DNA from: a virus
IMG/VR virus record: IMGVR_UViG_3300025468_000017
Span: 1 to 25,103 of that record
Length of the DNA stretch: 25,103 nucleotides
Reading direction: 5' to 3' (one strand)
Shown in pieces: positions 1 through 25,103 of this stretch (positions are counted from its first letter, which is position 1; each line of letters begins with the position of its first letter). Made by a program: the position numbers and the translations under genes. The notes below the pieces were generated by a model that was given only the letters and a program-made list of their open reading frames with translations, searched no databases and was not told where the DNA came from.

Positions 1-3000
1 CTTCTTTAACTCCGCCTAAAACGGTAGGAGCTGATACAGGTAAAGAATAGTTATTAGCTGAAGTAGCTATACCATCTAGTTTAGTGTTATCAGCTGTAGT
101 AAAGTTAACTTGCGTTAGTCCACCATCGCCTACTGAATAAGTAGTATTAGTATCTGTAGAACTAATAGTACCGCCAGCAGAGATAGCAACATTAGACCCT
201 GCTGTTAACGAAGCCACAACATTTGCGGTATCTGTAACATCAGCACTTGCTTCAATACCATCTAACTTATTTTTAAGTGTAGAAGTAAAGTTTTTCTGTG
301 TTAAACCACCATCACCAACACTGTAAGTAGTGTTGTTATCAGGTACAGTAACAGTATCAGTAGTTCCATCACCACGGTTTAATGTGATAGTATGTCCACT
401 AATAGTCATCGCATTTGCCGCAGTACTTAATGACTGGTTCGATGTCTTAGCAGTTTTACTACTTAACGAAGTTGTTACCGAACTCGCATAACTAGAATCA
501 TCGCCAATAGCAGCTGCTAATTCATTGAGAGTATTCAATGCACCGGGTGCACCACCGATTAAGTTAGTAATCTGTGTATCTACATATCCCGGAGTAGTTT
601 TAGCATCTAAAGCCGTTTGTAGTCCATCAACATTACTAATAACATGATTGTGTGAATCATCTGCAACAACTGCACTAATAGTAACATTGCCCAAGTTAGA
701 CATAGTAGCAGAACCAGTTACATCACCACTCAACGCAATTACTGGATCATTTACATTAATATCCATTGTATTATCAGCATCTTGATAAGTCACTGATACA
801 CCACTTTCACTATTACTAGACCACATAGCACCAGCCGTATCTGAAATATATTCAGCCAACCCATCAATGTTTCCAGTGACATGATTATGCGAATCATCAG
901 CGACCACAACACTTAATGTAGCATTACCTAAGTTAGTGAAAGTTGCGGAACCACTTGCATCACCACTCAATGTTAATGTTGGATCTGCTGTAGCTGTAGT
1001 AGCAATACTAACATTTCCTAAATTAGTCATTGTAGCAGAACCCGTTACTGCTCCTGTTACCGTGATTGTTGGATCATTTACATTAATATCCATTGTATTA
1101 TCAGCATCTTGATAAGTCACTGATACACCACTTTCACTATTACTAGACCACATAGCACCAGCCGTATCTGAAATATATTCAGCCAACCCATCAATGTTTC
1201 CAGTGACATGATTATGCGAATCATCAGCAACCGTTAATGCAACACTTACATTGCCTAAGTTAGTCATTGTACCCGACCCAGTAGCATCACCGGTAAATGT
1301 TAATGTTGAATCTTGCGTAATTGTAATAGTTGGGGTAGCACCTTCACCACTATTATTAGTGATTCCAATACCAGTACCAGCAACCAAACTTTCAACATAA
1401 CTTCCAGTGGTATCAGTACCTAATGTTATTGCACCTGCTGATGTAGCACTATCAACATAAGCCTTTGTAGCTGCTTGTGCTGAATTAGTAATTGCATCAC
1501 TTAGGAACAATGAACTAGCTTGCATACTAGCATCAGAATAAGATGTACCATTGGCTGACGTTGCCGCTCTCCAACGATCCGAACTTTCTTCCCATACCAT
1601 ATATGCATCTGTGCCACCACGTTCTGCTTGAATACCAATGTATGTAGCAGACGCACCAGTGTTACCAGAAGCACACTGAATAATAGCATCAGAAATAGCT
1701 AAGTTAGTGCTATCAATAGTAGTAGTTGTACCATTAACAGTTAAGTTTCCACTCAATGTTAAGTTAGTAAATGTAGGGCTATCAGCACTACCAACACCTA
1801 AATCAGTAGTATGTGAACCACCATCTGCTGTACTAATGGTGTATACACCACTTGAACTATTAAACCCTGTGCTACTCACACCTGCAACAGATGTAGTGCT
1901 AGCACTTGTTATGCGACCCTGTGCATCAACTGTAATTACTGGAACCAATGAAGCTGAACCATAACTACCGGCTGAAACTGCTGTATTATCCATTGCAACC
2001 GTTAATGTATCACCTGAAACACTAGAACTCAATCCAGTTCCACCAGCAATAGTAAATGTATCAGTTCCAACCGTAATTGTGCCTGTTCCAGTATCACCTG
2101 CCATTCCCATATCAGAACTAACTGCGATGGTACTAGCTGATGTAGCACGACCCTTAGCATCAAATGTAATTACAGGAATTGCAGTTGCACTACCATAAGA
2201 AGCAGCGGTAACACCACTAGCTGCTAATGTCATTGCGGATGTAACATTTGCAGAACCATTAAATGATCCTGAATTCCATGTTCCATCACCGGTCATTGCA
2301 ATTGTGCGACTTGTTGCTAATGTAGTTGCAGTGCCAGCATTGCCGGTAGTGTCTGCTGAATCAACATACGCCTTGTTAGTTGCATCGGTAGACACTGTTG
2401 GTGTAGCAAGATTAGTAATCTTTTCGCCTTCCATATGGAAGCCAGCCACATTATGAATAGCATTGCCATCACTTGATGTCATATTCTTACCTGCCATCAG
2501 TTGCATTGTGCCATTTATCTCAATAGTACCACCAGATGCTGGTGATAAACCAATGTCACCCGACCCAGAAGTTTGGATGTCTAAGTTCTGATTCTCATCC
2601 GCACTGAATACGATAGTACCTGAATTATCTTCAATTACTTTCTGTCCATTTACATACAATGATCCTGGACCAATATACACATCTTTCCACATCTTAGTTG
2701 CACTACCCAATGATCTAACATTATCAGTATCTGGTATAAGATCAGTATCAACTATAATAGATGATCCTGAACCAGCACTTAGATTACTAACATCAATAGT
2801 ACCAGCATGAATTTCATTCCAACGGCTAGCAGACGAACCTAAGTTACGTGTAGCATTGCCATCTGGAATCACATTAGAACCGATATCAGCATTAAATGTT
2901 ACTGAATCTGTATTTGCATCACCGAATACTAAATTACCATTTGCTGTAATATTACCAGCAGCGACAATGTTTCCAGTGAAATTAGCAGTACTTGCCGTAA

Positions 3001-6000
3001 CAGTTATATTAGTATCTGAGTCATTAGTTTCAACTGTTGCTGATCCAGCACTATTTGAAATTCCAATAATAGTTTCAGTTGTAGTTAACTCACGTACTTC
3101 AATCGAATCAGCAGAAGACGGTGCTTCTGTGAATGTTAATGTCGTGCCAACTACCGCATATGCAGTGATTGGTTTCTGAATAACACCATTAATATTAACG
3201 ATACATGATGCAGTAGTTTGTGAACTTCCTAATGTAAATGCAGTAGTTGATCCATCACCAGTGAATGATTCTGTAGCAATTGCCGTAAACTCTGTAGACA
3301 TTTGCGTCCACTTACTACCTTCCCAATACTCTGGGTTAGTTGTGTTAGTATTAAATCTAAACATACCAACAGACGGTGTGCCTGGACGCTGTGCAGATGT
3401 ACCTCGTGGTAATAACATTGAATCAGTTGATCCAACTACTAATTTAGCACCAGTAACTGGGGTAGCTGTTCCGATCAATACGGTATCCGTGCCACCATCA
3501 GTAACTAATAAGTTAGCATCAGTGTCACCTTCAATACGAACATCGACATCAGCACCAGCTTCATTAATAGTAACATTACCATCTAATGTAGTTGCACCAT
3601 CAACATCTAATGTTCCACTTGTGTGAATATTACCCGATGTATTAGCAACTGTGAATGCACCACTATCTGCATTAATGCCACCATTTGCGTTTAATAACGC
3701 ACTGATAGTAGTAATGCCAGTAACACCCAATGTACCACCAACCGTTGCATTGTTAGTAACAGTAGCGTTATCTAATGTGTTGGTTCCGTTTGCATTTAAT
3801 GCACCAGTTAATGTAGTTGCACTAGTAACAGCTAATGTACCAGCAATTGCTGTATTACCACTTGCACTTGCTACTGTAAACTTAGATGTGTTAACATCGA
3901 AGTCACCATCAATACCAGCAGCACCAGAAACTGCTAATGTAGTTCCAATTGTTGCAGCACCAGTAATAGTTGCACTTGCTAATGTTGAAGCACCAGCATT
4001 TAGTGTACTAGATAATGTAGTTGCCCCAGATACCCCTAGTGTACCACCGACCGAAGTGTTACCACTTGATTGGGTGATAGTAGTAGCACCGACAGTTAAT
4101 GTTGTTCCATCAAATGTGAAGTTTCCATCATCTTCAATTTCACCAGCAGCACCGGCAATAACTACACGGTTGTTGGTTAAATCACTAATTTTAGCACTTG
4201 ATAATGTAGCTGCACCCGAAGTCAATGTACTTGTAACCGCTAATGTACCTGATACGGTCTCATTTCCAGTAACCGCTAACACAGAACCATTAAATGTTAA
4301 GTTTCCACTATCTTCGATAGCACCACCAGCACCTGCCAATATAACACGTCCACTTGTCAGATCACTAACTGTAGCACTTGATAATGTTGTTTCGCCAGCA
4401 CTCAATGTACTAGATAATACAGTAGCATCAGTAACACTTAATGTACCAGCAATAGTTGTATTACCTGTAGCATCAGCAACGATAAACTTATCAGTATCAA
4501 CTGTAATACCACCATTTGCAGCCAATGAACCACCAATCGTAGCAGTAGTTGTGACACTAGCACTATTCAATGTAGCTAACCCACTTGTTGAAGCAGTAGA
4601 CATTGTAGTAGCACCAGTTACACCCAATGTACCACCTACTGTAGTATTGCCTGTAACCGAAGCACTTGCCAACGTTGAAACACCAGTTACACCTAGTGTG
4701 CCACCTATCGTAGCATCACCTGTATTACGAATCCCACCCATTGCCATAGTACCCAATGCACCAGTAATTACTTCTGCTGTATTAGTTGCATCTGAGATGA
4801 ATACCATTTCAGAAGCACTATCATCATAACCGAAGAATCCAAGTTTAGCATCAGTGCCATTATGCCATTTATACACGATACCACGATCTTTATTATCGTC
4901 AGAACCATTCGCCCCAACTGTCATGATTGGGTCAACTACTTCAACCGTAGTTGAGTTTACAGTAGTTGTAGTACCATTAACAGTTAAGTTACCACTAATA
5001 ATAGTATCACCACTTGCTGTCAATGTACTAACATCTGTGTGTCCATCGACTTCTAAGGTACCATCTGTATGTACATTACCTGAAGTATCAGCTACCGTAA
5101 ATGCAGTACCATCAACCTCAATACCACCATTAGCAGCTAATAGACCACTTGCAGTGATTGTTGTAGCTGTTGTGGCACCAGCACTTAATGTACCATAGAC
5201 TGCTGTATTACCAGTCGCACTATCAACAGTGAACTTATTAGTACTAACATCAAAGTCACCATCAATACCAGTAGCACCAGTGACATCTAATGTACTCGCA
5301 GAAGCATTGCCTGTGATAATAGCACTTACTAATGTAGAAACACCTGCACTTAATGTACCATCGATAACTGCGTTACCTGTAACATCCAAGTCCGCACCGA
5401 CATTCATATTACCAGTACTAGTAACAATACCATCAACTAGCAACAATGAACCATTAAATGTTAAGTTTCCGCTATCTTCTAATTCACCTGCTGTTCCAGC
5501 TAATACAACACGTCCACTAGATAAATCACTAACTTTAGCACTTGCTAAGGTAGTATTTCCTGCACTTAATGTACCTGAAACAGTAGCATTGCTACTAAAT
5601 TCAACATTCCCACCAACGGTAGCTCCAGCAGTAACTACTAATCCGTTACCCGATGCTTTACTTAATGTTAATGTATCACTGATATCAGCTGTACTATTTG
5701 CATCGATTGCACCATTAAATGTAGCTAATCCAGATGCTGTAATAGTTGAAGCTGTAGTTGCGCCAGTAACAGCTAACGTACCAGCAATTGCTGTATTACC
5801 GGTAGCATCAGCGACCGTGAACTTATTGCTGTCAACTGCAATACCAGCATTTGCATTAAGGAGACCACTTATTGTGGTAACACCCGTAACACCCAATGTA
5901 CCACCAACCGTAGATGCACCTGTAACTGTTAGTGCATCACCGATAGTAACATCATCTGGTAATCCAATTGTTAACGTATCAGTAGCACTAACCGCAGTAG

Positions 6001-9000
6001 TTACTTCATTTGCTGTTCCACTCACAACCATTGTGTCTCCACTAGAGATTGTCTGTGAAGAAGAACCATCAGATAATGTCCAACCCGTAGAAGATAATAA
6101 ATCTACATATGCTTTGGTAGCAGCATCTTGTGCTGATGTTGGATCTGTTACATTTGAAACTTTATTTGATCCTGCACTAATAGTTTGACCATTCGCAACA
6201 GTTAATCCACCATTGAATGTGGCACTCTGCCCAAATGTCGAAGCACCTGTTACAGTAACCGTATCAACACCTGCATTGCCTAATGTAACATTGCCATTTA
6301 GTGTGGTATTACCCGCAACACTAAGTGCTTGACTTAATGACGCATCACCGGAAACAGTTAATGTAGTTGAAACCGTAGTTGCTCCAGAAATAGCCAACGT
6401 AGACCCATTAAATGTTAAGTTTCCACTATCTTCTACTTCACCACTTGCACCAGCAATTAATACGCGATTATCTGTTAAATCAGTAACACGTAAACTTCCA
6501 ACTGCCATCCCACTTAAACTTCCAGTCATAACAGACGAAGTATCAGTTGCATCAGCAATCACTACAAATTCAGAAGCACTATCATCATAACCCATAAAGG
6601 CTTCTTTTGCATCTGTTCCGTTATGCCATTTTAATTTTAGACCGCGATCTAAGTTATCATCTGACCCATTAGTACCTAATGTCATAATTGGATCAGCTAC
6701 TTCAACTACTGTTGAGTTAACTGTTGTTGTTGTGCCAGAAACGGTTAAGTTTCCACCTACAATAACATTCCCTGTTGATGTCAGTGAACTAACATCAGTA
6801 TGACCAGTAACAGCGAGTGTACCACCAACTGTTGCATCAGCAGTAACAGAAAGTCCTGTTCCTGTTGCTTTGCTTAATGTTAATGTATCTGCAAAATCAC
6901 CTACGCCAGATGCATCCAATGATGAAATAGTAGTTGCGCCTGTTACTGATAATGTACCAGCAATTGCTGTATTACCTGTGCTATCAGCGACAGTGAACTT
7001 ATTGGTATCAACTTCAATACCACCGTTTAAACTAGCTAACCCACCAACAGATAGTGTGCTTGCAGTAACTACTGCACCTGACGATCCATCTACTGTGAAG
7101 TTACTTGTATCAACTGCGATACCACCATCTGCATTAAGTAATCCAGTTAATGTAGTAACACCTGTTACAGCGAGTGTACCACCAACTGTTGCATCAGCAG
7201 TAACAGAAAGACCTGTTCCTGTTGCTTTGCTTAATGTTAATGTATTGTTAATATCAGCAGTATTGTTAATATCAACTGCACCATTTAGTGTAGTTCCACC
7301 AGATATAGTCAATGTTCCTGATGTAGCAACATTTCCAGTTGAATTAGCAACAGTGAACGCACCATCAACATCAATTCCACCATCTAAACTAGCTAAACCA
7401 CTAGCATCAATAGTAGTACTCGACAATGCGCCTGAAGTTAATGAGCCAGATAGTGTCGTATTACCAGTAACAGTTAGTGTACCAGCAACCGCTGTGTTAC
7501 CACTTGCACTTGCTACCGTGAATTTAGATGAATTAACATCGAAGTCACCATCAACACCCATCGCACCAGTAACATCCATTGTAGTACTTACTGTTGCTGA
7601 ACCTGTAACAGCCAATATTGATCCATCAAATGTTAAATTAGTTGAATCTTCTACTTCACCGTTTGTACCAGCAAGTAACACACGACTAGTTGTTAAATCA
7701 GAAACTTTTAAGCTACCAAATTTAGCAGCACCCACCGCACCAGACATTACTTCTGCCGCATTAGATGCATCTGGGATGAATACAAATTCAGAAGAACTAT
7801 CGTCATACCCAAAATAACCAACTTTTGCATCTGTTCCGTTATGCCACTGATATTGCACACCACGATCTTTATTGTCATCCGCAGCTGGTGCAGTATCTCC
7901 ACCTAAATTCATAATTGGGTCATCAACGGAAACCACAGTTGAATTAACTGTAGTAGATGTACCATTAACTGTTAGATTTCCACCCACAATAACATTGCCA
8001 GTAGACTCTAACGTACCATTGATTGTTGTATTTGCAGCGGTTAATGTACCTGATGTGTCTATGTTACCCGTTGAATTAGCAACAGTAAATACGCCATCAA
8101 CATCAATTCCACCATCTAAACTAGCTAAACCACTTGCTGTGATTGTAGTCACCGTAGCATTGTCAGTAGCATTTAATGTTGTTGTAGTAGTTCCGCCATT
8201 TGCAATTAATGCACTAGTTAATGTAGTAACACCAGTAACAGCGAGTGTACCACCAACTGTTGCATCAGCAGTAACAGAAAGTCCTGTTCCTGTTGCTTTG
8301 CTTAATGTTAATGTATCTGCAAAATCACCTACACCAGATGCATCTAACGATGAAATAGTAGTTGCACCATTAACATCCAATGTGCCATCAATAACTGTAT
8401 TGCCTGTAGCATCAGCGACTGTGAACTTATTGGTATCAACTACAATACCACCGTTTAATGTTGCCAATCCTGATGCAGTAATAGCAGCAACAGTTGATGC
8501 ACCGGTAACACCTAATGTGCTACCTAATGTAGTTGCACCATCAGCATTTAATGTGCTTGCAGTAGAAACAGCACCCGATGAACCATCTACAGTGAAATTA
8601 TTTGTATCAACTGCAATACCACCATTTGCGTTTAGCAAATTAGCAAGTGTTGTTACACCAGTAACACCTAGTGTGCCACCAAATGAACCATCTGCTGATG
8701 CTACTAAATCTTCTAATGCTAAGTCTTTGACTTGCATATCAGCATATGCTGATACCGTAACTGTCGTGCTAGAATCTGCATCTGAAGTAGTTGCCGCAAC
8801 GAACTTATCCGCTGATTCATCCCAAACGAATGCTATATTTGTGTTTGTTCCACGTTCACCGATAAACCCGATGTCCGTAGCACCTGCGCCACTTTGGTTT
8901 GACGCTAAAACCATTATCGGATCTTCAACTGTCATAGCGGTAGTATCGATTGTCGTCGATGTACCACTTACAGTCAAGTTGCCGGTGACCGTTAGGTTTG

Positions 9001-9115
9001 AACCATAGGTCATGTCGTTTTCTAAAAGACCACCTGTAATCGTACTAGAAACGAGTTTTGTTCCCGTAATTGTACCATCAGTGATCTGATTATTCTTAAT
9101 TCTTGTAATTGCCAT
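1..9115 (-). CDS. Giant modular phage fibre-like virion protein (C-terminus beyond the window)
   Basis: The frame opens at an ATG at 9113-9115 behind a good Shine-Dalgarno (AAGGGAG, about 9 nt upstream) and stays open to base 1, giving at least 3038 codons; the C-terminus is missing. The N-terminus (MAITRIKNNQITDGTI) resembles the attachment end of fibre-type proteins in marine T4-like phages. The rest is almost wholly repeats: dozens of short Gly/Thr/Ala/Asn-rich units of the form GNTxIxGTLxVTG, five copies of an approximately 75-residue DPIM/WHNGTDAK-type module, five copies of a RVxLAG-ExEDSxNLTF module, one AQRP module (3085-3415), and a DDSHNHVTGN repeat near the left end. I found only two cysteines. 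The composition points to a beta-rich extracellular fibre or adhesin. Its position after the capsid genes and four smaller fibre-like genes fits a virion surface role. The exact function (tail fibre, whisker or head decoration) is inference, and a C-terminal receptor or chaperone domain may lie outside the window. Confidence 0.9.
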   Translation of the reverse strand, partial: MAITRIKNNQITDGTITGTKLVSSTITGGLLENDMTYGSNLTVTGNLTVSGTSTTIDTTAMTVEDPIMVLASNQSGAGATDIGFIGERGTNTNIAFVWDESADKFVAATTSDADSSTTVTVSAYADMQVKDLALEDLVASADGSFGGTLGVTGVTTLANLLNANGGIAVDTNNFTVDGSSGAVSTASTLNADGATTLGSTLGVTGASTVAAITASGLATLNGGIVVDTNKFTVADATGNTVIDGTLDVNGATTISSLDASGVGDFADTLTLSKATGTGLSVTADATVGGTLAVTGVTTLTSALIANGGTTTTTLNATDNATVTTITASGLASLDGGIDVDGVFTVANSTGNIDTSGTLTAANTTINGTLESTGNVIVGGNLTVNGTSTTVNSTVVSVDDPIMNLGGDTAPAADDNKDRGVQYQWHNGTDAKVGYFGYDDSSSEFVFIPDASNAAEVMSGAVGAAKFGSLKVSDLTTSRVLLAGTNGEVEDSTNLTFDGSILAVTGSATVSTTMDVTGAMGVDGDFDVNSSKFTVASASGNTAVAGTLTVTGNTTLSGSLTSGALSSTTIDASGLASLDGGIDVDGAFTVANSTGNVATSGTLTISGGTTLNGAVDINNTADINNTLTLSKATGTGLSVTADATVGGTLAVTGVTTLTGLLNADGGIAVDTSNFTVDGSSGAVVTASTLSVGGLASLNGGIEVDTNKFTVADSTGNTAIAGTLSVTGATTISSLDASGVGDFADTLTLSKATGTGLSVTADATVGGTLAVTGHTDVSSLTSTGNVIVGGNLTVSGTTTTVNSTVVEVADPIMTLGTNGSDDNLDRGLKLKWHNGTDAKEAFMGYDDSASEFVVIADATDTSSVMTGSLSGMAVGSLRVTDLTDNRVLIAGASGEVEDSGNLTFNGSTLAISGATTVSTTLTVSGDASLSQALSVAGNTTLNGNVTLGNAGVDTVTVTGASTFGQSATFNGGLTVANGQTISAGSNKVSNVTDPTSAQDAATKAYVDLLSSTGWTLSDGSSSQTISSGDTMVVSGTANEVTTAVSATDTLTIGLPDDVTIGDALTVTGASTVGGTLGVTGVTTISGLLNANAGIAVDSNKFTVADATGNTAIAGTLAVTGATTASTITASGLATFNGAIDANSTADISDTLTLSKASGNGLVVTAGATVGGNVEFSSNATVSGTLSAGNTTLASAKVSDLSSGRVVLAGTAGELEDSGNLTFNGSLLLVDGIVTSTGNMNVGADLDVTGNAVIDGTLSAGVSTLVSAIITGNASASTLDVTGATGIDGDFDVSTNKFTVDSATGNTAVYGTLSAGATTATTITASGLLAANGGIEVDGTAFTVADTSGNVHTDGTLEVDGHTDVSTLTASGDTIISGNLTVNGTTTTVNSTTVEVVDPIMTVGANGSDDNKDRGIVYKWHNGTDAKLGFFGYDDSASEMVFISDATNTAEVITGALGTMAMGGIRNTGDATIGGTLGVTGVSTLASASVTGNTTVGGTLGVTGATTMSTASTSGLATLNSASVTTTATIGGSLAANGGITVDTDKFIVADATGNTTIAGTLSVTDATVLSSTLSAGETTLSSATVSDLTSGRVILAGAGGAIEDSGNLTFNGSVLAVTGNETVSGTLAVTSTLTSGAATLSSAKISDLTNNRVVIAGAAGEIEDDGNFTFDGTTLTVGATTITQSSGNTSVGGTLGVSGATTLSSTLNAGASTLASATITGAATIGTTLAVSGAAGIDGDFDVNTSKFTVASASGNTAIAGTLAVTSATTLTGALNANGTNTLDNATVTNNATVGGTLGVTGITTISALLNANGGINADSGAFTVANTSGNIHTSGTLDVDGATTLDGNVTINEAGADVDVRIEGDTDANLLVTDGGTDTVLIGTATPVTGAKLVVGSTDSMLLPRGTSAQRPGTPSVGMFRFNTNTTNPEYWEGSKWTQMSTEFTAIATESFTGDGSTTAFTLGSSQTTASCIVNINGVIQKPITAYAVVGTTLTFTEAPSSADSIEVRELTTTETIIGISNSAGSATVETNDSDTNITVTASTANFTGNIVAAGNITANGNLVFGDANTDSVTFNADIGSNVIPDGNATRNLGSSASRWNEIHAGTIDVSNLSAGSGSSIIVDTDLIPDTDNVRSLGSATKMWKDVYIGPGSLYVNGQKVIEDNSGTIVFSADENQNLDIQTSGSGDIGLSPASGGTIEINGTMQLMAGKNMTSSDGNAIHNVAGFHMEGEKITNLATPTVSTDATNKAYVDSADTTGNAGTATTLATSRTIAMTGDGTWNSGSFNGSANVTSAMTLAASGVTAASYGSATAIPVITFDAKGRATSASTIAVSSDMGMAGDTGTGTITVGTDTFTIAGGTGLSSSVSGDTLTVAMDNTAVSAGSYGSASLVPVITVDAQGRITSASTTSVAGVSSTGFNSSSGVYTISTADGGSHTTDLGVGSADSPTFTNLTLSGNLTVNGTTTTIDSTNLAISDAIIQCASGNTGASATYIGIQAERGGTDAYMVWEESSDRWRAATSANGTSYSDASMQASSLFLSDAITNSAQAATKAYVDSATSAGAITLGTDTTGSYVESLVAGTGIGITNNSGEGATPTITITQDSTLTFTGDATGSGTMTNLGNVSVALTVADDSHNHVTGNIDGLAEYISDTAGAMWSSNSESGVSVTYQDADNTMDINVNDPTITVTGAVTGSATMTNLGNVSIATTATADPTLTLSGDASGSATFTNLGNATLSVVVADDSHNHVTGNIDGLAEYISDTAGAMWSSNSESGVSVTYQDADNTMDINVNDPVIALSGDVTGSATMSNLGNVTISAVVADDSHNHVISNVDGLQTALDAKTTPGYVDTQITNLIGGAPGALNTLNELAAAIGDDSSYASSVTTSLSSKTAKTSNQSLSTAANAMTISGHTITLNRGDGTTDTVTVPDNNTTYSVGDGGLTQKNFTSTLKNKLDGIEASADVTDTANVVASLTAGSNVAISAGGTISSTDTNTTYSVGDGGLTQVNFTTADNTKLDGIATSANNYSLPVSAPTVLGGVKE
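743..1228. repeat. 159-bp perfect direct repeat inside the giant fibre gene
   Basis: Bases 743-901 and 1070-1228 read identically in my comparison, 327 bp (109 codons) apart, so the repeat is in frame. It encodes about 53 residues from the DDSHNHVTGN motif through the TAGAMWSSNSESG segment to NVNDP. A third, diverged copy of the DDSHNHV motif lies near 625-675. The lack of synonymous differences, unlike the neighbouring repeats, suggests recent duplication or gene conversion. Confidence 0.93.
4099..7709 (-). repeat. Five copies of the RVxLAG-EDSGNLTF module
   Basis: A roughly 32-residue unit, SDLTxxRVxLAG then ExEDSGNLTFNGSxLAV, occurs at about 4099-4192, 4279-4375, 5440-5536, 6396-6493 and 7612-7709. 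A sixth copy lies in the separate gene at 9210-10232 (about 9957-10041). DNA similarity is also high; the string AATGTTAAGTTTCC recurs in the copies near 4301, 5457 and 6411. It is probably a beta-hairpin unit of the fibre; that structural reading is inference. Confidence 0.82.
6803..8332. repeat. 102-bp exact dispersed repeat with a third near-copy, in the giant fibre gene
   Basis: Bases 6803-6904 and 8231-8332 are identical over 102 bp, and 7167-7245 repeats 79 bp of the same unit with one mismatch. The unit encodes the segment containing LTLSKATGTGLSVTADATVG (read on the minus strand). The copies are in frame and separated by other modules, which fits recombination between modules within the gene. 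Confidence 0.9.
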
Positions 9116-13136: not shown

Positions 13137-14588
13137 TTAGTTAGCATACTCAAACACCATATTACCACAATCATAATATCTTCTATACCCGGCATCAAAC
13201 ATATTCATACTTTCACTCTTTGATGCATCAAAGTTTGGCAACCATTTAGCTAGGTTTGACTTTTGGCTTTTATACCTTGAAATCTTAATAGTGCCATCTG
13301 TCCAAAAGTAACCAGGCTTTGTATTACTGAGATGCTTAAAACCCATTTGCAAATACCCATTGCCACTTGACATAGACAAACTACAATACGTCATCAATGA
13401 TCCAACATATTTCATCCCAAAAGCAGACAATATTCGTGACCCACCTCCAACCACAGTAATGCCTCCTTTGCTACATGATCTCAACAATTCATAATCGTAC
13501 TTCTTTTTGTACCTTGACACACCAAAACTCATCAATGATACCAATTCATTATCATAATACAACCCATATGCTATTTTAGATGAGACATACCCCTGTAAAT
13601 GATTTGCATCCAAAAATATGTGTTCATCCTGTTTGGGGACAACTTGCACAGTACACTTCCTTGCATATATTCTGGTGTTAATTCCCATCTTACTTCGTAT
13701 AATTGATTTTATTATATCTTCGTTGTGTATCCACTCATAATCTGTGATGTGCATCAACCTTACATTCTTTTCCTTTGCGGTAGCAGTCTTATCAATATGC
13801 CTTGTTTTATATTCTTCTTTGATATGTGATGGATTATATGAATGCCAATACAACCCATTAACTTCAATCCCTATACCTTTTGATGGGATTAATATATCAA
13901 TTTCTTTGCTTCCTAAAATAGTCCAATCACCTAAAACCACATTGATACGTAACTCATCCCCAATAAACTTTGCTATCTCCATTTCAATCAGTGAATAGTT
14001 TGTTCGTTTTCGTATTTTGAACCCATGCTTCCTACAATACCACCCAACTGTTCCGTAATACACATTCAGTTCACTGGCAATATCCACCAATGATCTTTTT
14101 TTGACATTATACTCATTGTCCATCCATACAAGGTCTGATAGCAATGCATATACATCGGCTGGTATCTTCGGATTTTTTAACTTACTGATAACATCCAATC
14201 GTTGAAGATTATGACTAACCCCATACTTCTGCATCATTGTATCGGATCGTTTTTTATTTACCTTGGTATGGTATTCATTAGACCACTTAGATTTGGTTGC
14301 TGATACCTTTTGTCCCATCTCTTCCTTTAGGCATCTACAGGTAGATGAATGACCACAATACTGATACCCTGATGATATCCTAGCAAACCCTTTATTGTTG
14401 CCATATCTACACACGCCATCTTCTTGTGACAATGCACTATATATCATTTCATTGTATTTTGAACTCTCCACTAATGTATTATATAATACCCACTCATTAA
14501 GTTCAGGATCTCTTTTTATAATTTGAGAATAATGCTTTGGCTTTTCCCGAATTAGTTCAATAATATGTTGTTTATGTTTTTTACTCAT
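13137..14588 (-). CDS. Free-standing EDxHD (Vsr-like) homing-endonuclease-type protein, 483 aa
   Basis: Residues 74-90 hold a Cys/His cluster (C78, H80, C84, C86), possibly zinc-binding. Residues 166-194 look like a helix-turn-helix (SLVDIASELNVYYGTVGWYC). Residues 198-290 fit the PD-(D/E)XK-related, very-short-patch-repair-like fold of the EDxHD homing endonucleases: E202/E204 in a helix, D231 in KEIDILIP, E242 and H249 in IGIEVNGLYWHS, H264, and D283 in MHITDYEW. The C-terminal part (about 308-480: FLDANHLQGYVSS, ELVSLMSFG, VVGGGSRILSAF) is a conserved extension seen in related phage proteins, with an acetyltransferase-like feel. The gene sits alone between the gp23 terminator and the tandem late promoters. 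The ribosome site is poor (AAAGG about 17 nt upstream), as often in free-standing homing genes. Its target is probably near gp23; activity is untested. Confidence 0.85.
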   Translation of the reverse strand: MSKKHKQHIIELIREKPKHYSQIIKRDPELNEWVLYNTLVESSKYNEMIYSALSQEDGVCRYGNNKGFARISSGYQYCGHSSTCRCLKEEMGQKVSATKSKWSNEYHTKVNKKRSDTMMQKYGVSHNLQRLDVISKLKNPKIPADVYALLSDLVWMDNEYNVKKRSLVDIASELNVYYGTVGWYCRKHGFKIRKRTNYSLIEMEIAKFIGDELRINVVLGDWTILGSKEIDILIPSKGIGIEVNGLYWHSYNPSHIKEEYKTRHIDKTATAKEKNVRLMHITDYEWIHNEDIIKSIIRSKMGINTRIYARKCTVQVVPKQDEHIFLDANHLQGYVSSKIAYGLYYDNELVSLMSFGVSRYKKKYDYELLRSCSKGGITVVGGGSRILSAFGMKYVGSLMTYCSLSMSSGNGYLQMGFKHLSNTKPGYFWTDGTIKISRYKSQKSNLAKWLPNFDASKSESMNMFDAGYRRYYDCGNMVFEYAN

Positions 14589-14687: not shown

Positions 14688-15878
14688 TTACTGGAATGAT
14701 AAGTTAGCTACGGCAATTTCACCTAGATAATCACCCGCGTTACCAAATGAGCTTGCAGTATTTGTTAATTCTACATAACCATATCTAGTAAGGAATGAAA
14801 CTACTGGTTCAAAAGTGCTAGGATCAAGTACTGTTCCTGAACTCATTAGTGGGATATATGGACAGTAGAACGCAGCTGCATCAGCTTCGCTTGACCCCTT
14901 ATAACCTACCAACACAGCCTGTGAATCAGAAGCATATGAATCAACATAAATCTTCATAGCACTATTCAATGTACCTACTAGCTTAGTGTTAGTTGGTGCT
15001 TCAAATGTACCTTCGGTAGTACGTGCAAACGCTGATGTAGTAGCTGATTGCAGAATAGTCAATGCAGCAGGACTAACAACAGCCCAGTTACCAGCACCAC
15101 GGCGTGTGCGTTGTGCAATTAAGTTACCAGTACGATTAACCAATACTGCTAATGCAGCATGTTCATCACCCACGAACGTAGCAGTACCAGAAACGGTAGA
15201 CTGATCGTATGTGAATTCTGTATTAGCCAATGAACGTAAAGATAAAAGAATCTCTTGATCAATTTCAGCAGTGATTTCTTGTGCTAAAGCAGCCATAATT
15301 TCAGCTTCAACATCAATACCATGCATTGAGTTAGCATCCTGTGCCGCTTCAAAAGTCCAACGTGCTTGTAACTTACGAGTCTTAGCTTCAACTGCTTGTT
15401 TCAAGAGTTGAACACTAATGTTACGACCGCCAGTTCCTTCCATATTTGATGTGGAAGCACCTTGATAGCTAGACTGTGTAGCACCATTGCCACCAGAGTA
15501 TGCGGTAGCAATCTTAAATGGGCTCAATGCTTCATCACCAGCAGTGGTATCAGCATTGGCTACGCTTGAATCATTCATTGTTGTACCATAACGCACACGC
15601 AATGTATGAATTTGGCTTACTGGTCCTTGCATTGGTTGTACACCAACTAATTCATTTGCAATTACAGTTGGCATAACACGACGGATGACAGGTAAAATTA
15701 CACGATTAAGTGTAGCAACATTACCTGAAGCCGTAGATCCTACTGTAGCTGATTCAGCCAAGTATGATTTTGTATTTTCTAAAATTACCGCCATAGATGA
15801 ACGCTTTGTTCCATTCAACCCTTCTAAAAGGGCATCTTTAGTCTCGCTCCAACGGCTTTCTAATAGTTCTTGTGACAT
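14688..15878 (-). CDS. 23: Major capsid protein gp23
   Basis: The shell protein of the T4-like head (HK97-type fold in the family). The N-terminus (MSQELLESRWSETKDALLEG) and the segment at about 58-80 (RVILPVIRRVMPTVIANELV) are hallmark gp23 sequences, followed by GVQPMQGPVSQIHTLRVRYG. The C-terminus carries the conserved PFEPVVSFLTRYGY-type motif (here STFEPVVSFLTRYGYVELTN). At 396 aa it is shorter than T4 gp23 (521 aa), lacking much of the middle insertion. A likely gp21 cleavage site of the LxE type is LAE at 40-42 (cut before S43). AGGAG lies 10 nt before the ATG, 25 bases after the gp22 stop, and a terminator follows. Homologues of the vertex protein gp24 are not in the window. Confidence 0.97.
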   Translation of the reverse strand: MSQELLESRWSETKDALLEGLNGTKRSSMAVILENTKSYLAESATVGSTASGNVATLNRVILPVIRRVMPTVIANELVGVQPMQGPVSQIHTLRVRYGTTMNDSSVANADTTAGDEALSPFKIATAYSGGNGATQSSYQGASTSNMEGTGGRNISVQLLKQAVEAKTRKLQARWTFEAAQDANSMHGIDVEAEIMAALAQEITAEIDQEILLSLRSLANTEFTYDQSTVSGTATFVGDEHAALAVLVNRTGNLIAQRTRRGAGNWAVVSPAALTILQSATTSAFARTTEGTFEAPTNTKLVGTLNSAMKIYVDSYASDSQAVLVGYKGSSEADAAAFYCPYIPLMSSGTVLDPSTFEPVVSFLTRYGYVELTNTASSFGNAGDYLGEIAVANLSFQ

Positions 15879-19435: not shown

Positions 19436-22400
19436 TTAGGCAGGGGGTGGCACAGGTGCTTCTGGTCCCATATCACCTTCCATTCCATCTGGTCCCATAT
19501 CATCTGACATCTCACCCATCATATCTAAATCATCAGCCATGCCAATATCGCCTTCCATTCCACCAGGCATCACACCAACACCACGTAAATCAGAACCCTC
19601 GGTTGGTACTTCTTCTACTTCCTTATTCTCTTCTGCCCATAGTTCATCATTCTTGGTCATATCTTCTTCTGATAAACCAAGATAGCGTTCAAGTAAAAAA
19701 CGTTTACTCAAATATGGATATTGTTCTAGTGATGCAAATGTCCCTACCCTAGATGCATCTTGTTCAGTCTGTCTATAACTAGCAAAGTTTTGTGGTTCGC
19801 CAAATGATATGTCAAATAAACTAGCATCAATATTAAATCCACGCCAAGCCAAAAACATCTTGAACTCTTTATTAAGCATTTCACCAATAGCATTCTGTAA
19901 TCTAATACAATACTGGTTGAATCTATACTCTTGTATTAATGCTGTTCCTAATCGCCCATCATTTACTGGTGCAGTATTATCCTCTGGTCCAGATGGCAAA
20001 TAACTACTTGGTACTCTTAGACCACGTGCTAATTTATTGTTGAAATACAGTAGATCATTAATTGAATTCTTAACAAAAACCCCAGCACTTAGTGCAAATG
20101 TGTGATAATCATGATGTAATTCATCTTGGTCAATAGATAATGTGCCGACATCTATAGTGTCATCTAAATAAATTATATCAACAATTCTATGGTTCTTATA
20201 CTCGGCGAATTCTTTAAATGTCTTGAAATTATCAATACCACATTTATTTAAATGGTTAATAACCTTATGTCTACTTGACAACAAATGATTATTATCTTTT
20301 AACTTTGAGATAAAATCATACTGTGACATCTGATTATCATATTGTGATATTAAATCATTCAATATATCATCGGGAACAATGTAAGAATGAATAAGTTTAA
20401 ATGATTCCCATGTGTGATTCATTTGCTTTAATAACTTGTGCAAGTGCCTAACCGAGAATTTATCAACCTTGGTATTACTATGAACCTTAGTATTCGCAGC
20501 AGCATACATCTGCATAAATGTACTATTATTCCCAATAATAGACGTGAAATCACCGGCATGCTCTACTTTATGTGTCACATACAGAGTTGACACAAATTCA
20601 TACATATCAGAATTAAACTTAATTTTTTGATCTTTAAATACACTATCATAGTACCCATCGGTTTGCCATCTAATAATATTAGCTTCTGTTATTTTTGCAC
20701 TTCGGTTTTTCCATAATTCAGGGTTATCAATCTTTGATTTGGATTGTCCTGCCGAGATTTTATTACCATATTCTTGCCTAAAGGTGTCATCCGTTAGTAG
20801 TGCTAAGAATTTTTCGGTTCCTTTATACCAATTAGTTCGGCTGACTTGCTTTCTCTCTTCTTTTTCATTACTAGTCAAATTTTTATAATATTTCTTCACA
20901 CCCACCGACCGTTTTTTATTAAGTGCATCAATTTCATCACTAGTCAGCGACTCATACCATCGTGATCTACCCTGTGTTTGTCGTTTTATGATGTCATTGT
21001 ACTGTTCGGGATCATGTTCTTTTAAATAATACATTTTATCCCTTGCCGCGAGAGTACCCAATGCCTGTGCTTCTTTTGAAAATCCTTTATCCTGATGATA
21101 CAATGTATGATCTGTGAAGTTCATCCATGTTAAATTAGCAGGAGAGTTATTATAACGATTAAAATCCTTATGGTGAATGGTGTTTTTTGAACTTGAAATA
21201 TAATCTTCATCAAACACCTTTTCAGTAGAATATCCATTCGATCTCATGTATTTCGCTACTAACCTATGTGTATATACCCACTTTTTAGATTCGTTGTCAT
21301 ACACCATTTCATAGTCACGTTTTGCATGCTTAGATATTTCTTTATTCTTTGTATACAACGGAATCAAAGATTGTCCAATTGTTAAATCTTTGGCTTCAAC
21401 AAACCCAATACCTGGCAGTGGTATCTTATGATCAGGAGTACAAACTATTTCTTCCCCATTATCTAATACAATTTTAAGAACTTTAGCATTTGACCTTGTT
21501 TTACCAGCCCATGATATCAATCCCGGCACAATTTTTCCAGTGATAGGATCACAACTATATGCCCACAACTCGTTCCCATCCTTCATTTCAGCTTCTATTT
21601 CAGAAATACTAAGATTGCGGTTATCTAATAATTTCACTTTGGTATCCAATGCAAAACAACCAAGATTGTCCCCGCCTGGCAATGTATCTACTTTAGAACC
21701 ACGTCCTTCCGCTGATTGCGGGAAAAAATAATCTTCTTGCATTGAATTTTTTATGTAAATACCTGATTCTATTGCAAAAGTATGGTATTCATTATCAACA
21801 TTTAAACACCCAGTGTCCATTGTTTCACGAAGGGGAACAAGTTTGGTCATCTTATTTGTGCTTTTAACCGCATGTTCAAATGAAATCAAACTATCATTAA
21901 TTGATAAGTCTTTCGCTTCAACAAACCCTTTCCCCAAAACTGGAATTTTATGATCTGGGGTACAAGTTAATGTCTCTCCATTATCTAAATGTAATTTTAA
22001 TACTTCTGTGTTTTTACGTGTTTCACCAGCCCATTTCACTTCACCTGGTACTACTTTACCCGATACAGGATCTGCACTATATACCCAATTTTCCTTACCA
22101 TCATTATATTCTGCTATAACTTGCTGTAATGTCAGGGTTCTTCCATCTAACAATGGTATTCTTGTTTCTAAATCAATACATAATGGATTGTATGTAGCAT
22201 CCAACATATTATCACCCTCGCCTGATTGGGTTGGTATTCTACGTTGGTGGATTTCATTTTTAACTCGTTCAACAAAACTCATTGCCATATGTGATGGCAT
22301 ATTACCTACATCGATGTAAAATACTCTTCGTTCAGGCGCACGTTGAACGCGATATATTAGAATAGCATCTTCCAATAGTTCTTTTTGTTTGTATACTTTG

Positions 22401-23155
22401 AAAATATTTTCAAGAATACTTGTACCAAAAGGCCAATTCAAGTCTAATCCTTCGGTTAAACTTAAATGAACAATATGTTTAGCATCTACTGTTGTTTCTC
22501 TTTGTGCAGCACCGAAGCGTGTTCCTTCACCAGCCACCGGATTTGACACTTGTTGTTGTTGTGGAGAAATACCGCCAGACATTGGTGTAATTCCAAAATC
22601 ATCTGTGGTTTTTGTTGCCACTGATAAATTTTCAAAATTAGGGTTAATATCTTGTATTATGTATTGATCTGGTTCTTTGCCTTTGCTTTCATTAACAATA
22701 ACACGCCCAACCTTGGACATGTCTACCCAGAATAATTCAAATGTTTCTGGGTCACGGAGAAATACCTGATCTCCATATTTTAGTGTATTCCTGAATAACT
22801 TAAATATACGTTTTTTGAATTGGTTTAATTTACACCATTGTTTTAAATTCTGTTCAATGAGTTTGACTTCATTATCAGTTGGTTTCTCGTGGTAATCAAC
22901 ATCAAATGGTGTGCTATTTTGATCATTGTCTTGTGTACTAAACTCTGAAATAATATCTAAACAAGCACTTATTTCACTATCCATATCCATTGCTTCGTAC
23001 TGATTATAACGATTAACACGATTTGGATGTCCTGAATAAACTTCTGGTAACCTACTTTGATAGTTCTTAAATCCGAACTTACCACCTTGCGCCCCACTAA
23101 TAGGACTCATTACACCGGTATTATCTGCTGCTTTAAAATATTTTTTCCATGACAT
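19436..23155 (-). CDS. 20: Portal vertex protein gp20 interrupted by two inteins
   Basis: The portal (connector) is the dodecameric gate for DNA packaging and the nucleus of prohead assembly. The precursor is 1239 aa in one open frame. N-extein: residues 1-325 (MSWKKYFKAADNTG..., LFRNTLKYGDQVFL, VQRAPERRVFYIDVGNMP). Intein 1: C326-N470. Middle extein: S471-G499 (SMQEDYFFPQSAEGRGSKVD then TLPGGDNLG). Intein 2: C500-N1030. C-extein: S1031-A1239 (SINDLLYFNNKLARGLRVPS, YLPSG). Removing the inteins gives 563 aa, close to T4 gp20 (524 aa), and reconstitutes the conserved SM-EDYFxP and LPGGxNLGxIxDLxYF regions. The C-terminus is Met/Gly/Asp-rich (GMEGDIGMADDLDMMGEM), then Pro-rich. The start ATG is 17 bases after the tape-measure gene stop with a weak AGGA site. 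A functional portal requires both splicing events. Confidence 0.97.
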   Translation of the reverse strand: MSWKKYFKAADNTGVMSPISGAQGGKFGFKNYQSRLPEVYSGHPNRVNRYNQYEAMDMDSEISACLDIISEFSTQDNDQNSTPFDVDYHEKPTDNEVKLIEQNLKQWCKLNQFKKRIFKLFRNTLKYGDQVFLRDPETFELFWVDMSKVGRVIVNESKGKEPDQYIIQDINPNFENLSVATKTTDDFGITPMSGGISPQQQQVSNPVAGEGTRFGAAQRETTVDAKHIVHLSLTEGLDLNWPFGTSILENIFKVYKQKELLEDAILIYRVQRAPERRVFYIDVGNMPSHMAMSFVERVKNEIHQRRIPTQSGEGDNMLDATYNPLCIDLETRIPLLDGRTLTLQQVIAEYNDGKENWVYSADPVSGKVVPGEVKWAGETRKNTEVLKLHLDNGETLTCTPDHKIPVLGKGFVEAKDLSINDSLISFEHAVKSTNKMTKLVPLRETMDTGCLNVDNEYHTFAIESGIYIKNSMQEDYFFPQSAEGRGSKVDTLPGGDNLGCFALDTKVKLLDNRNLSISEIEAEMKDGNELWAYSCDPITGKIVPGLISWAGKTRSNAKVLKIVLDNGEEIVCTPDHKIPLPGIGFVEAKDLTIGQSLIPLYTKNKEISKHAKRDYEMVYDNESKKWVYTHRLVAKYMRSNGYSTEKVFDEDYISSSKNTIHHKDFNRYNNSPANLTWMNFTDHTLYHQDKGFSKEAQALGTLAARDKMYYLKEHDPEQYNDIIKRQTQGRSRWYESLTSDEIDALNKKRSVGVKKYYKNLTSNEKEERKQVSRTNWYKGTEKFLALLTDDTFRQEYGNKISAGQSKSKIDNPELWKNRSAKITEANIIRWQTDGYYDSVFKDQKIKFNSDMYEFVSTLYVTHKVEHAGDFTSIIGNNSTFMQMYAAANTKVHSNTKVDKFSVRHLHKLLKQMNHTWESFKLIHSYIVPDDILNDLISQYDNQMSQYDFISKLKDNNHLLSSRHKVINHLNKCGIDNFKTFKEFAEYKNHRIVDIIYLDDTIDVGTLSIDQDELHHDYHTFALSAGVFVKNSINDLLYFNNKLARGLRVPSSYLPSGPEDNTAPVNDGRLGTALIQEYRFNQYCIRLQNAIGEMLNKEFKMFLAWRGFNIDASLFDISFGEPQNFASYRQTEQDASRVGTFASLEQYPYLSKRFLLERYLGLSEEDMTKNDELWAEENKEVEEVPTEGSDLRGVGVMPGGMEGDIGMADDLDMMGEMSDDMGPDGMEGDMGPEAPVPPPA
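20066..21658 (-). other. Intein 2 of gp20 (531 aa, with HNH endonuclease)
   Basis: Spans C500-N1030 of the precursor. Splicing motifs: block A CFALDTKVKLL; block B CTPDHKIPLPGIGFVEAKDL with T573 and H576; block F DYHTFALSAG with H1018; block G VFVKN with N1030, followed by Ser1031. Residues about 625-690 form an HNH-type endonuclease core (HHKDFNRYNNSPANLTWM, H661/H662 and N670, N674). About 690-990 follow as Lys-rich repeats (GRSRWYESLTSDE and RSVGVKKYYKNLTSNE) resembling NUMOD-type DNA-binding units. The penultimate residue is Lys, not the usual His. This looks like a complete, potentially mobile intein; activity is inferred. Confidence 0.95.
21086..21193 (-). other. HNH endonuclease core within intein 2
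   Basis: Residues about 655-690 of the gp20 precursor contain NTIHHKDFNRYNNSPANLTW and then HTLYHQDKG. The double His, the invariant Asn in RYNNSP and the ANL motif are classic for HNH homing endonucleases found in inteins. Confidence 0.85.
21746..22180 (-). other. Intein 1 of gp20 (145-aa mini-intein)
   Basis: Spans C326-N470. Block A: CIDLETRIPLLDGRTL. Block B: CTPDHKIPVLGKGFVEAKDL with T399 and H402. Block F: EYHTFAIESG with H458. Block G: IYIKN with N470, followed by Ser471. There is only a short linker (about 25 residues) where an endonuclease would sit, so it is a splicing-only intein. It aligns without gaps to intein 2 over the N-terminal 100 residues at about 58 identities by my count. 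The penultimate residue is Lys469. It interrupts the portal just before the conserved SMQEDYFFP motif. Confidence 0.95.
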
Positions 23156-23171: not shown

Positions 23172-25103
23172 CTAATTTTGTGTTACTCGAAGTATCTTGT
23201 TGGATATGCTTGTGTTATCCTCAATTGCTTTAACAACAGCAGTTAGCTTATTTACTTGTTTTTCTAGTAGTTCAATATGTTTATTATTTGATGTTCCTGC
23301 TTGTACATTTACTGGGATACCTTTCTTGTCAGGGAGTGGGACAACAGCTTCGGTGCCATGCATAGTCACATTATACCCAGATTTTGGTCCAGATAACACC
23401 CCACCCTTTACCATTTCAGGTGATGAATGCACTGCATGAGATGACTTTTCTATAACATTTACATCTATAGGTGTAGTACCAGGCAATACTTTTATTTCGT
23501 CTGGGAATACCACTTCTATTTTTCCAGCACTAAACATACCAGTACTCTCAGATGTCTCTCTAATTACTTCATATATTTTTTGCCATAATTTGCTATCTTT
23601 ATTAATATCAACACCATCGGTGGTTGCTTGGTCTAATAATGCTTTTATTTGTGCACCACCTGCTTTTGTAATAGTGTCTGATAATATATCATGATCTTTT
23701 TCTAGTAGTGCATTAATGCTACTTTGCAACGGGGGCAGTGGTGTAAATAGCGACTCTCGTTCAGTTTTCTCAATGCCCATTTGTTTTAATATAGCAGAAA
23801 CACTGTCTGTGCGTTTTTCAGTTTCTGTTTTAATAACTGCATTAAGTTTTTTTATTTGGATGTTTATTTCGTCAACCCGCTTATCAATCGCAGTTGATCT
23901 AGCCGTTTCTTCAGGTGTGAGTGGATTTTCTATACCTGCCATTTTCATTTTGTGGGTGGGTGGCACATTTAAGTTTGCCTTTTCAATTAATAATTTTCTG
24001 CGTTCAATGTTTAAATCTTGCAGACTTACTTCCGATTCGGTCGCTGGGCGTTTTGGAGTTGCATCAGTAAAAAAATCACCTTTGAATGTGTCATAAAACA
24101 GATTCGTGCCAACAACAAACTTCTCCCCGGCGCTATCCAATGTTGAAGCCACATTCGGGGAATTCATTAATGTCGCTGTGATACTAGCACTTGCTTGCTG
24201 TAATGCCACCTGCAATGAGACTAATGCCTTAGTGGTTGGGTCAGAATCTGCCCCCATTTGCTTCTGTTGATGCTTAACAGCGTCACCTAAGTCTTTGAAA
24301 TCTGCTGTCATTAGATCCATTGATTCGTGGTATCTCACATAAACACCAGCACTATCACCAATAGATTGATTTAATGATTTCATCGGTGCTTTATTGGCTT
24401 TTACTGCTTCTTGGAAAGCTATCATTGCTTCATGTGCAGACAGCTGCCCACTTTTGACTTTTTCCATTATTTTAACGGATGCACCATTGGTTGAGCGGAA
24501 TAATTTTTGTGCCGCTTCCGATTGAGTGAAACCCGATGCTTGGTCTCGTAACCCTGATGCCATTTCGCCACTAAATGCAGACATTGAATTGTTCAATATA
24601 TCCATTTGAATTCGTTGATCTTTGCCTACATCTTCCATTGTAGCACGCCAGCGTCCTTCTCGCATCGCAGCATCTACTAGTTTTTGCTGTTCTCCACGTT
24701 GCAACCCAGTAAGCCTAGAAACTTTATCCAATTCTTTCGCATATTTTTGAGTTTGTTCTTGTAATGAGGTACTATCTAATCGTTGTCCTCTTCCTAACCT
24801 ACGCTGTAAGTCTGCAAAGTTTATCACGGTTTCACTTATTTCTTCGGTGGTGAAACCAATGTTACGTAGTTCCGTATTCATACCTTTGCGCATAACACCC
24901 ATTACACTAGCAAACTCACTACTAGCATCTCCGGTTGTACCTTGCAAGGCAGCAAGTTGTTTGCTATTGCCTATTATAAGACCACTGAACATTTTCAAAG
25001 GCATACCAGCAGCGTGGATATCCTTCGCAAGTCCAGCAATACTATCAGAACCAATTCCACCAACACGACTTAATTCTTGGAATGACCCTAGACCATCATC
25101 TAA
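23172..25103 (-). CDS. Tail tape-measure-like protein, C-terminal part (continues past the right edge)
   Basis: The frame is open to the window end with no start, giving 643 codons of the C-terminal part. The visible sequence is helical and Ala/Gln/Lys-rich: ELSRVGGIGSDSIAGLAKDI, LIIGNSKQLAALQGTTGD, then KVSRLTGLQRGEQQKLVDAA, typical of phage tail tape-measure cores. Near the C-terminus comes YNVTMHGTEAVVPLPDKKG, the Gly-x-Glu-Ala-Val-Val-Pro-Leu motif seen at tape-measure ends, followed by a short coiled coil (NKHIELLEKQVNKLTAVVKA). Tape-measure proteins set tail length and are threaded through the tail tube. In T4, the gene directly upstream of gp20 is the tail tube gene 19, so this neighbour is unusual. 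Identification rests on motifs; another long virion structural protein is possible. The stop is TAG, 16 bases before the portal ATG. Confidence 0.7.
   Translation of the reverse strand, partial: LDDGLGSFQELSRVGGIGSDSIAGLAKDIHAAGMPLKMFSGLIIGNSKQLAALQGTTGDASSEFASVMGVMRKGMNTELRNIGFTTEEISETVINFADLQRRLGRGQRLDSTSLQEQTQKYAKELDKVSRLTGLQRGEQQKLVDAAMREGRWRATMEDVGKDQRIQMDILNNSMSAFSGEMASGLRDQASGFTQSEAAQKLFRSTNGASVKIMEKVKSGQLSAHEAMIAFQEAVKANKAPMKSLNQSIGDSAGVYVRYHESMDLMTADFKDLGDAVKHQQKQMGADSDPTTKALVSLQVALQQASASITATLMNSPNVASTLDSAGEKFVVGTNLFYDTFKGDFFTDATPKRPATESEVSLQDLNIERRKLLIEKANLNVPPTHKMKMAGIENPLTPEETARSTAIDKRVDEINIQIKKLNAVIKTETEKRTDSVSAILKQMGIEKTERESLFTPLPPLQSSINALLEKDHDILSDTITKAGGAQIKALLDQATTDGVDINKDSKLWQKIYEVIRETSESTGMFSAGKIEVVFPDEIKVLPGTTPIDVNVIEKSSHAVHSSPEMVKGGVLSGPKSGYNVTMHGTEAVVPLPDKKGIPVNVQAGTSNNKHIELLEKQVNKLTAVVKAIEDNTSISNKILRVTQN

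Follow-up and report, generated by a model that had tools for sequence, protein, structure and literature searches.

The window, a 25.1-kb IMG/VR record, encodes a T4-like portal protein (gp20) as a precursor that appears to carry two self-excising class 1 inteins, acquired separately at adjoining sites of a clip and channel-loop segment that is an insertion hot spot. We hold this reading with a probability of about 0.92. A single open reading frame (ORF) on the minus strand matches the Pfam family Portal_T4 and, in two stretches, Intein_splicing. The parts of the precursor, with their computed boundaries, are as follows.

19436..23155, minus strand: T4-like portal (gp20) precursor, 1239 aa, stop codon included in the coordinates (PF07230, 2.6e-86 for the unspliced ORF; phrog_213, 1.3e-93)
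22181..23155, minus strand: N-extein, aa 1-325, C-terminal end DATYNPL (alignment with intein-free portals)
21746..22180, minus strand: intein A, aa 326-470, 145 aa, mini-intein lacking a homing endonuclease (HEN), from C1 to IKN/S (splicing-domain match, boundaries)
21659..21745, minus strand: middle extein, aa 471-499 (S471-G499), 29 aa, SMQEDYFFPQSAEGRGSKVDTLPGGDNLG (alignment)
20066..21658, minus strand: intein B, aa 500-1030, 531 aa, from C1 to VKN/S (splicing-domain match, tree)
21341..21658, minus strand: intein B, N-terminal half of the HINT splicing domain, approximate boundary (pLDDT, identity to intein A)
20195..21340, minus strand: intein B, inserted HNH homing endonuclease region, approximate boundaries (phrog_7545, HNH_3)
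21095..21181, minus strand: intein B, HNH motif region, IHHKDFNRYNNSPANLTWMNFTDHTLYH (H162, H163, N175, H188)
20066..20194, minus strand: intein B, C-terminal half of the HINT domain (pLDDT mostly 83-94; Foldseek matches are inteins)
19439..20065, minus strand: C-extein, aa 1031-1239, first residues SINDLLYF (alignment with intein-free portals)

The initial annotation had proposed two inteins in one T4-like portal gene, 29 residues apart, and the Pfam matches bear this out, with boundaries identical to the residue. Continuity of the portal across residues 325/471 and 499/1031 was checked against the intein-free genes of loci L092, L093 and L096, all of which read NPLSTNEDFFFPQTAEGRGSKVDTLPGGENLGQIDDLRYF with no gap at the junctions. 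The L092 and L093 portals are ∼70% identical to the window portal over its whole length, and the spliced product, a 563-aa portal, can be aligned from end to end with portals that lack inteins. Six further IMG/VR contigs hold the portal ORF at 99.97 to 100% nucleotide identity (four full, two partial), which excludes chance and an assembly error. Both insertion sites were also correctly placed in conserved portal motifs: intein A lies at E325 in the clip domain (T4 gp20 residue 328) and intein B at E354 in the channel loop (T4 gp20 residue 357), where E numbers are residues of the spliced window portal. The middle extein corresponds to residues 329 to 357 of T4 gp20, which comprise the inner clip loop together with the greater part of the channel loop.

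Judged by their motifs, A and B are ordinary class 1 inteins and are predicted to splice. The catalytic set comprises C326, TPDH (the TxxH of block B), the terminal N470 and S471 as the +1 Ser in intein A, and C500, TPDH, N1030 and S1031 in intein B. The same combination of C1, TxxH, terminal Asn and +1 Ser, Thr or Cys was present in 134/134 distinct complete inteins of the family among the matches listed, C1 having served as a filter in choosing these 134. Lys precedes the terminal Asn in both A and B and in 102/134 members, while His takes this penultimate position in 6/134, those in the site counts all being at E334/E336. As Lys is shared by most members, it is in our view characteristic of the family and no sign of decay. 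With Lys in place of the usual His, Asn cyclization must be supported by another residue; penultimate His, though usual, is not universal, and splicing is known for inteins that lack it. Each HINT domain would excise itself by an N-S acyl shift at C1, followed by transfer to Ser+1 and Asn cyclization, and the rejoined flanks would yield the 563-aa portal with clip and channel loop restored. The initial annotation had held that folding and the order of the two splicing reactions must be coordinated; independent splicing of A and B would serve equally well.

Intein A is predicted to adopt a HINT fold (AlphaFold2 mean pLDDT, 90.8), and its model matches the NrdJ-1 intein (PDB 8ubs; Foldseek TM, 0.88) and the Npu DnaE intein (PDB 4kl5; TM, 0.81). 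Both share the fold with A at ∼20% sequence identity and come from different hosts; NrdJ-1 is a split intein, whereas A is contiguous within the portal ORF. Npu DnaE is likewise a split intein. Pfam and phrog profile searches revealed no endonuclease domain within the 145 aa of intein A. Comparison with the intein of L009 gave a dN/dS of ∼0.04, indicating strong purifying selection, as would be expected if splicing is still needed.

Intein B, by comparison, matches the HNH endonuclease family phrog_7545 (3.8e-9) and the Pfam profile HNH_3 (1.7e-4, with a score of 21.6 that is slightly under the curated cutoff of 24.8). Residues H162, H163, N175 and H188 of the HNH motif region are invariant among 11 homologues. 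In the AlphaFold2 model the HINT halves are confident, with pLDDT values of 87 to 95 per 10-residue block over the first 100 residues of the intein, and the endonuclease region includes low-confidence segments with values below 50. We infer that intein B carries an intact HNH homing endonuclease, for which activity is predicted.

The two sites belong to a crowded stretch. At least seven insertion sites fall in the clip region (E310, E314/315, E325 [A], E327, E334-336, E350/351 and E354 [B]), corresponding to T4 gp20 residues 316, 319, 328, 330, 337-339, 353/354 and 357; further insert positions upstream are used in other portals. Seven of 12 site classes lie within 52 of 563 residues, for which a binomial estimate gives 3e-5, a rough figure as the site list is handmade and approximate. 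Sun et al. (2015, PMC4493910) place the clip domain of T4 gp20, which serves to attach the packaging ATPase, at residues 279 to 358; R338 and K342 belong to the inner clip loop, and residues 350 to 359 form the channel loop. This domain map places the clip sites where the portal meets the terminase and the DNA. The same cryo-EM study describes a member of the family of the spliced extein (PF07230), T4 gp20 itself having no intein.

Close spacing is a recurrent property of these genes. Middle exteins in doubles measure 39 (L244), 29 (window), 26 (L285), 25 (L041, L193), 23 (L291) and 17 (L182) residues, and shorter ones measure 14 (L195, L231, L331), 11 (L015, L034, L070, L322) and 10 (L319). 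Triple insertions occur as well. That of L323 (4518-6827) reads NPL/150 aa/SINDDYFFASS/376 aa/SDGRGSKVETLPGGE/218 aa/STGEIS, with middle exteins of 11 and 15 residues and a spliced product that is 46% identical to the window portal and gap-free at every junction; L439 carries inteins of 417, 157 and 149 aa (middles of 13 and 12 residues), and L387 carries inteins of 156, 254 and 346 aa (middles of 11 and 25). Among the matches listed, removal of the inserts gave one uninterrupted portal domain in 24/24 distinct multi-intein genes. Such continuity of the exteins lends indirect support to their ligation after excision.

The family is strongly tied to this gene. All of the best 80 loci listed in the first scan with intein A (80/80) were T4-like portal genes, and 294/298 ORFs with a strong N-block match among the matches listed were portals, the four non-portal ORFs all being weaker or truncated matches. 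In viral contigs we counted at least 163 distinct portal genes with complete inteins, at least 139 of them with one, at least 21 with two and at least 3 with three; as each scan comprised its best 80 loci, these counts describe the sample and not prevalence. A cellular origin was considered and rejected, 84,980 bacterial and archaeal species genomes having given two hits, both portals in metagenome bins. A tblastn search of the GenBank phage collection found no close relative in any cultured-phage record, and the portal of LR756508, an uncultured huge phage in that collection, contains an insert of the portal-intein kind. We found no report of inteins in gp20 in the open-access papers searched, outside which most subscription journals lie. 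The suggestion of the initial annotation that a gp20 with two inteins is undescribed thus held for this literature and for cultured phages, but the arrangement is not singular to the window, given the many portal doubles and triples found. Multi-intein genes themselves are already known; what is new is the portal-restricted family, its density of sites and their spacing of 10 to 25 residues.

Several divergent cases were also seen. Locus L305 is Bacillus phage SP-15, in which SP15_022, an unannotated hypothetical protein that is not a portal, contains a related intein (2e-21, N-block profile). The E325-site inteins of L289:+ and L346:+ have the aligned start PVWKNTPIPLLDG, with no obvious Cys or Ser at position 1, and possibly represent another intein class or a misplaced start. 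Three long inserts interrupt the match to the portal profile in L239, L338, L045 and L353; some lie upstream of the clip, and these are inteins of greater divergence, some of them starting with Pro in the aligned frame.

Site A preserves several states of intein occupancy. L009 and L010 have a 409-aa intein at this position and L093 and L096 have none; their flanks are 86 to 93% identical in nucleotide sequence, and the break is exact to the base. With the site-A mini-inteins of L008 and of the window added, one small group thus displays all three states: empty, full and lacking the endonuclease. This would fit a homing cycle, with intein A as a probable HEN-less derivative of inteins homing at the NPL/S site. 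At site B the nearest intein-free relatives are ∼70% identical in protein, the precise empty site being the one seen at site A.

The lack of an endonuclease in A and the presence of one in B, 87 bp away, raise the possibility that the two form a unit in which A is mobilized together with B by co-conversion of the intervening 87 bp, so that the pair spreads together. Comparable pairs of a mini-intein and a full one occur in L015, L070, L231, L322 and L331, and a study on haloarchaeal inteins states that co-mobilization of inactive elements by an active neighbor is known in phages (PMC10643990). The same study reports, however, that adjacent inteins of haloarchaeal MCM hinder each other's homing, and the L395 double (152 and 208 aa) has no large intein at all. 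Over all loci HEN-less partners had seemed to be in excess in multi-intein genes (Fisher P = 0.003); because three of the scans rank by full-length match and so favor HEN-holding genes, we dropped this claim. In the HEN-unbiased set, made up of two other scans, mini-inteins were not significantly commoner in multi-intein genes (9/24, versus 16/62; Fisher P = 0.30). No conversion tract or recent homing sweep around the inteins was apparent in the near-identical contigs, the whole of 15.5 to 24.58 kb being nearly identical. We regard such joint homing as a minority possibility, at odds of roughly three to one against. Less likely still is the broader proposal that the T4-like portal clip is a docking segment for up to three inteins, 10 to 25 residues apart, which would splice in concert during portal folding and spread jointly by co-conversion from one active endonuclease, with mini-inteins such as A hitchhiking.

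Conditional splicing of one or both inteins, gating portal assembly or packaging, would give the inserts a regulatory role. They do sit in the part of the portal that contacts terminase and DNA, and mycobacterial DnaB inteins are reported to splice conditionally (PMC6195587). Against this, patchy presence, empty sites in close relatives, many site combinations and the HENs all fit selfish spread, and no sensor feature was seen; we consider regulation improbable. The similarity of the HINT halves of A and B could in principle allow the N-terminal half of A to splice with the C-terminal half of B, dropping the 29-residue middle extein and giving a second, shorter portal form. The N-terminal half of B is 54% identical to A over 113 aa, but the C-terminal stretches are only ∼32% identical, and the middle extein is conserved in all intein-free relatives, so that the product should be defective; such cross-splicing is very improbable. 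We give as little weight to a decayed locus, with one intein unable to splice and the gene either dead or an artifact of assembly: the splicing of A and B is read from sequence and not from protein, but the frame is intact and recurs in six other contigs, intein A is under purifying selection, and all catalytic residues are kept.

The separate origin of the two inteins is supported by the computed splicing-domain phylogeny (116 rows, 135 columns), in which the bootstrap had not fully settled. Intein A groups with the E325 inteins of L008 and L009 (100/99). Intein B and the L244 intein at E354 are sisters (100/98), and the pair branches within a clade of E350/E351-site inteins (100/93). The independent E354 intein of L244 led us to reject the notion that site B is unique to the window. 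The site label changes 9 times on the tree, versus 51 times when shuffled. A single clade of all E325 inteins is split by the best tree but was not rejected (p-AU, 0.208); a clade of A and B was rejected (p-AU, 0.006). From these separate tree positions and the rejected sisterhood we infer that A and B arrived separately. For the E354 site, a short displacement (12 bp, 3 to 4 codons) of the E350 lineage at LPGG/S is the probable source, a direction that depends on the rooting within the well-supported nest. Tandem duplication within the portal gene, with later loss of the endonuclease from A, would explain the identity of A and B over 113 aa, yet we rejected it as hardly credible, given that each intein groups with own-site inteins of other phages, that the AU test opposes it, and that partners are no more alike within a gene (identity, 0.56) than between genes (0.57). 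Under the preferred reading, A and B would have been brought together by separate acquisition at neighboring sites, and the hot spot would result from a single portal-restricted intein family having several lineages, each specific to a site, that target the same segment.

Elsewhere in the window, a 483-aa ORF directly downstream of gp23 (13137-14588, minus strand) matches the homing endonuclease families phrog_3339 (4.3e-93) and phrog_559 (2e-72). The gp23 major capsid gene itself, at 14688-15878, belongs to the same head-gene cluster as this free-standing homing endonuclease. At 24585-25002 lies a 420-bp patch that resembles a recombination tract: L084 and L085, otherwise nearly identical to the window over 9 to 10 kb, share ∼76 mismatches and 6 gap positions that are restricted to it. 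Near-identical contigs also show a smaller mismatch cluster inside gp23 (15433-15554). An ORF of at least 3038 aa (2-9115, minus strand) runs off the record end.

The closest parallel is provided by sites a to d of the haloarchaeal MCM helicase (Turgeman-Grott et al. 2023, PMC10643990), which show, as does the portal, several close sites in a conserved part of the gene, double occupancy, some sites lining the DNA channel and some HEN-less partners. MCM is a cellular helicase with LAGLIDADG endonucleases, whereas the portal belongs to the virion, the endonucleases in it are of the HNH type, and its middle exteins go down to 10 residues. Haloarchaeal PolB is also a multi-intein gene. Among phage packaging proteins, the terminase large subunit of cyanophage Mic1 similarly contains two inteins, one with a HEN, but these lie in separate domains and not tens of residues apart (PMC7156551). 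The terminase large subunit of the crAss-like delta group, likewise a protein other than the portal, also has two inteins (PMC7886860). In the distant T4-like Campylobacter phage IBB_35, PhoH and NrdA are each described with two inteins, and gp20 is listed as an ordinary structural protein (PMC3322345).

These findings have a practical consequence, as gp20 is a marker gene for T4-like phages, and gene callers and primers will break or misjoin it in many environmental phages. They also bear on the question, presented as open in PMC10643990, of how often a HEN-less intein homes via the endonuclease of its neighbor. Natural two- and three-intein precursors built around peptides of 10 to 25 residues offer material on how closely inteins can be packed and yet splice. 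The family as a whole is almost confined to one virion gene, in which it occupies at least seven insertion sites within ∼45 residues.
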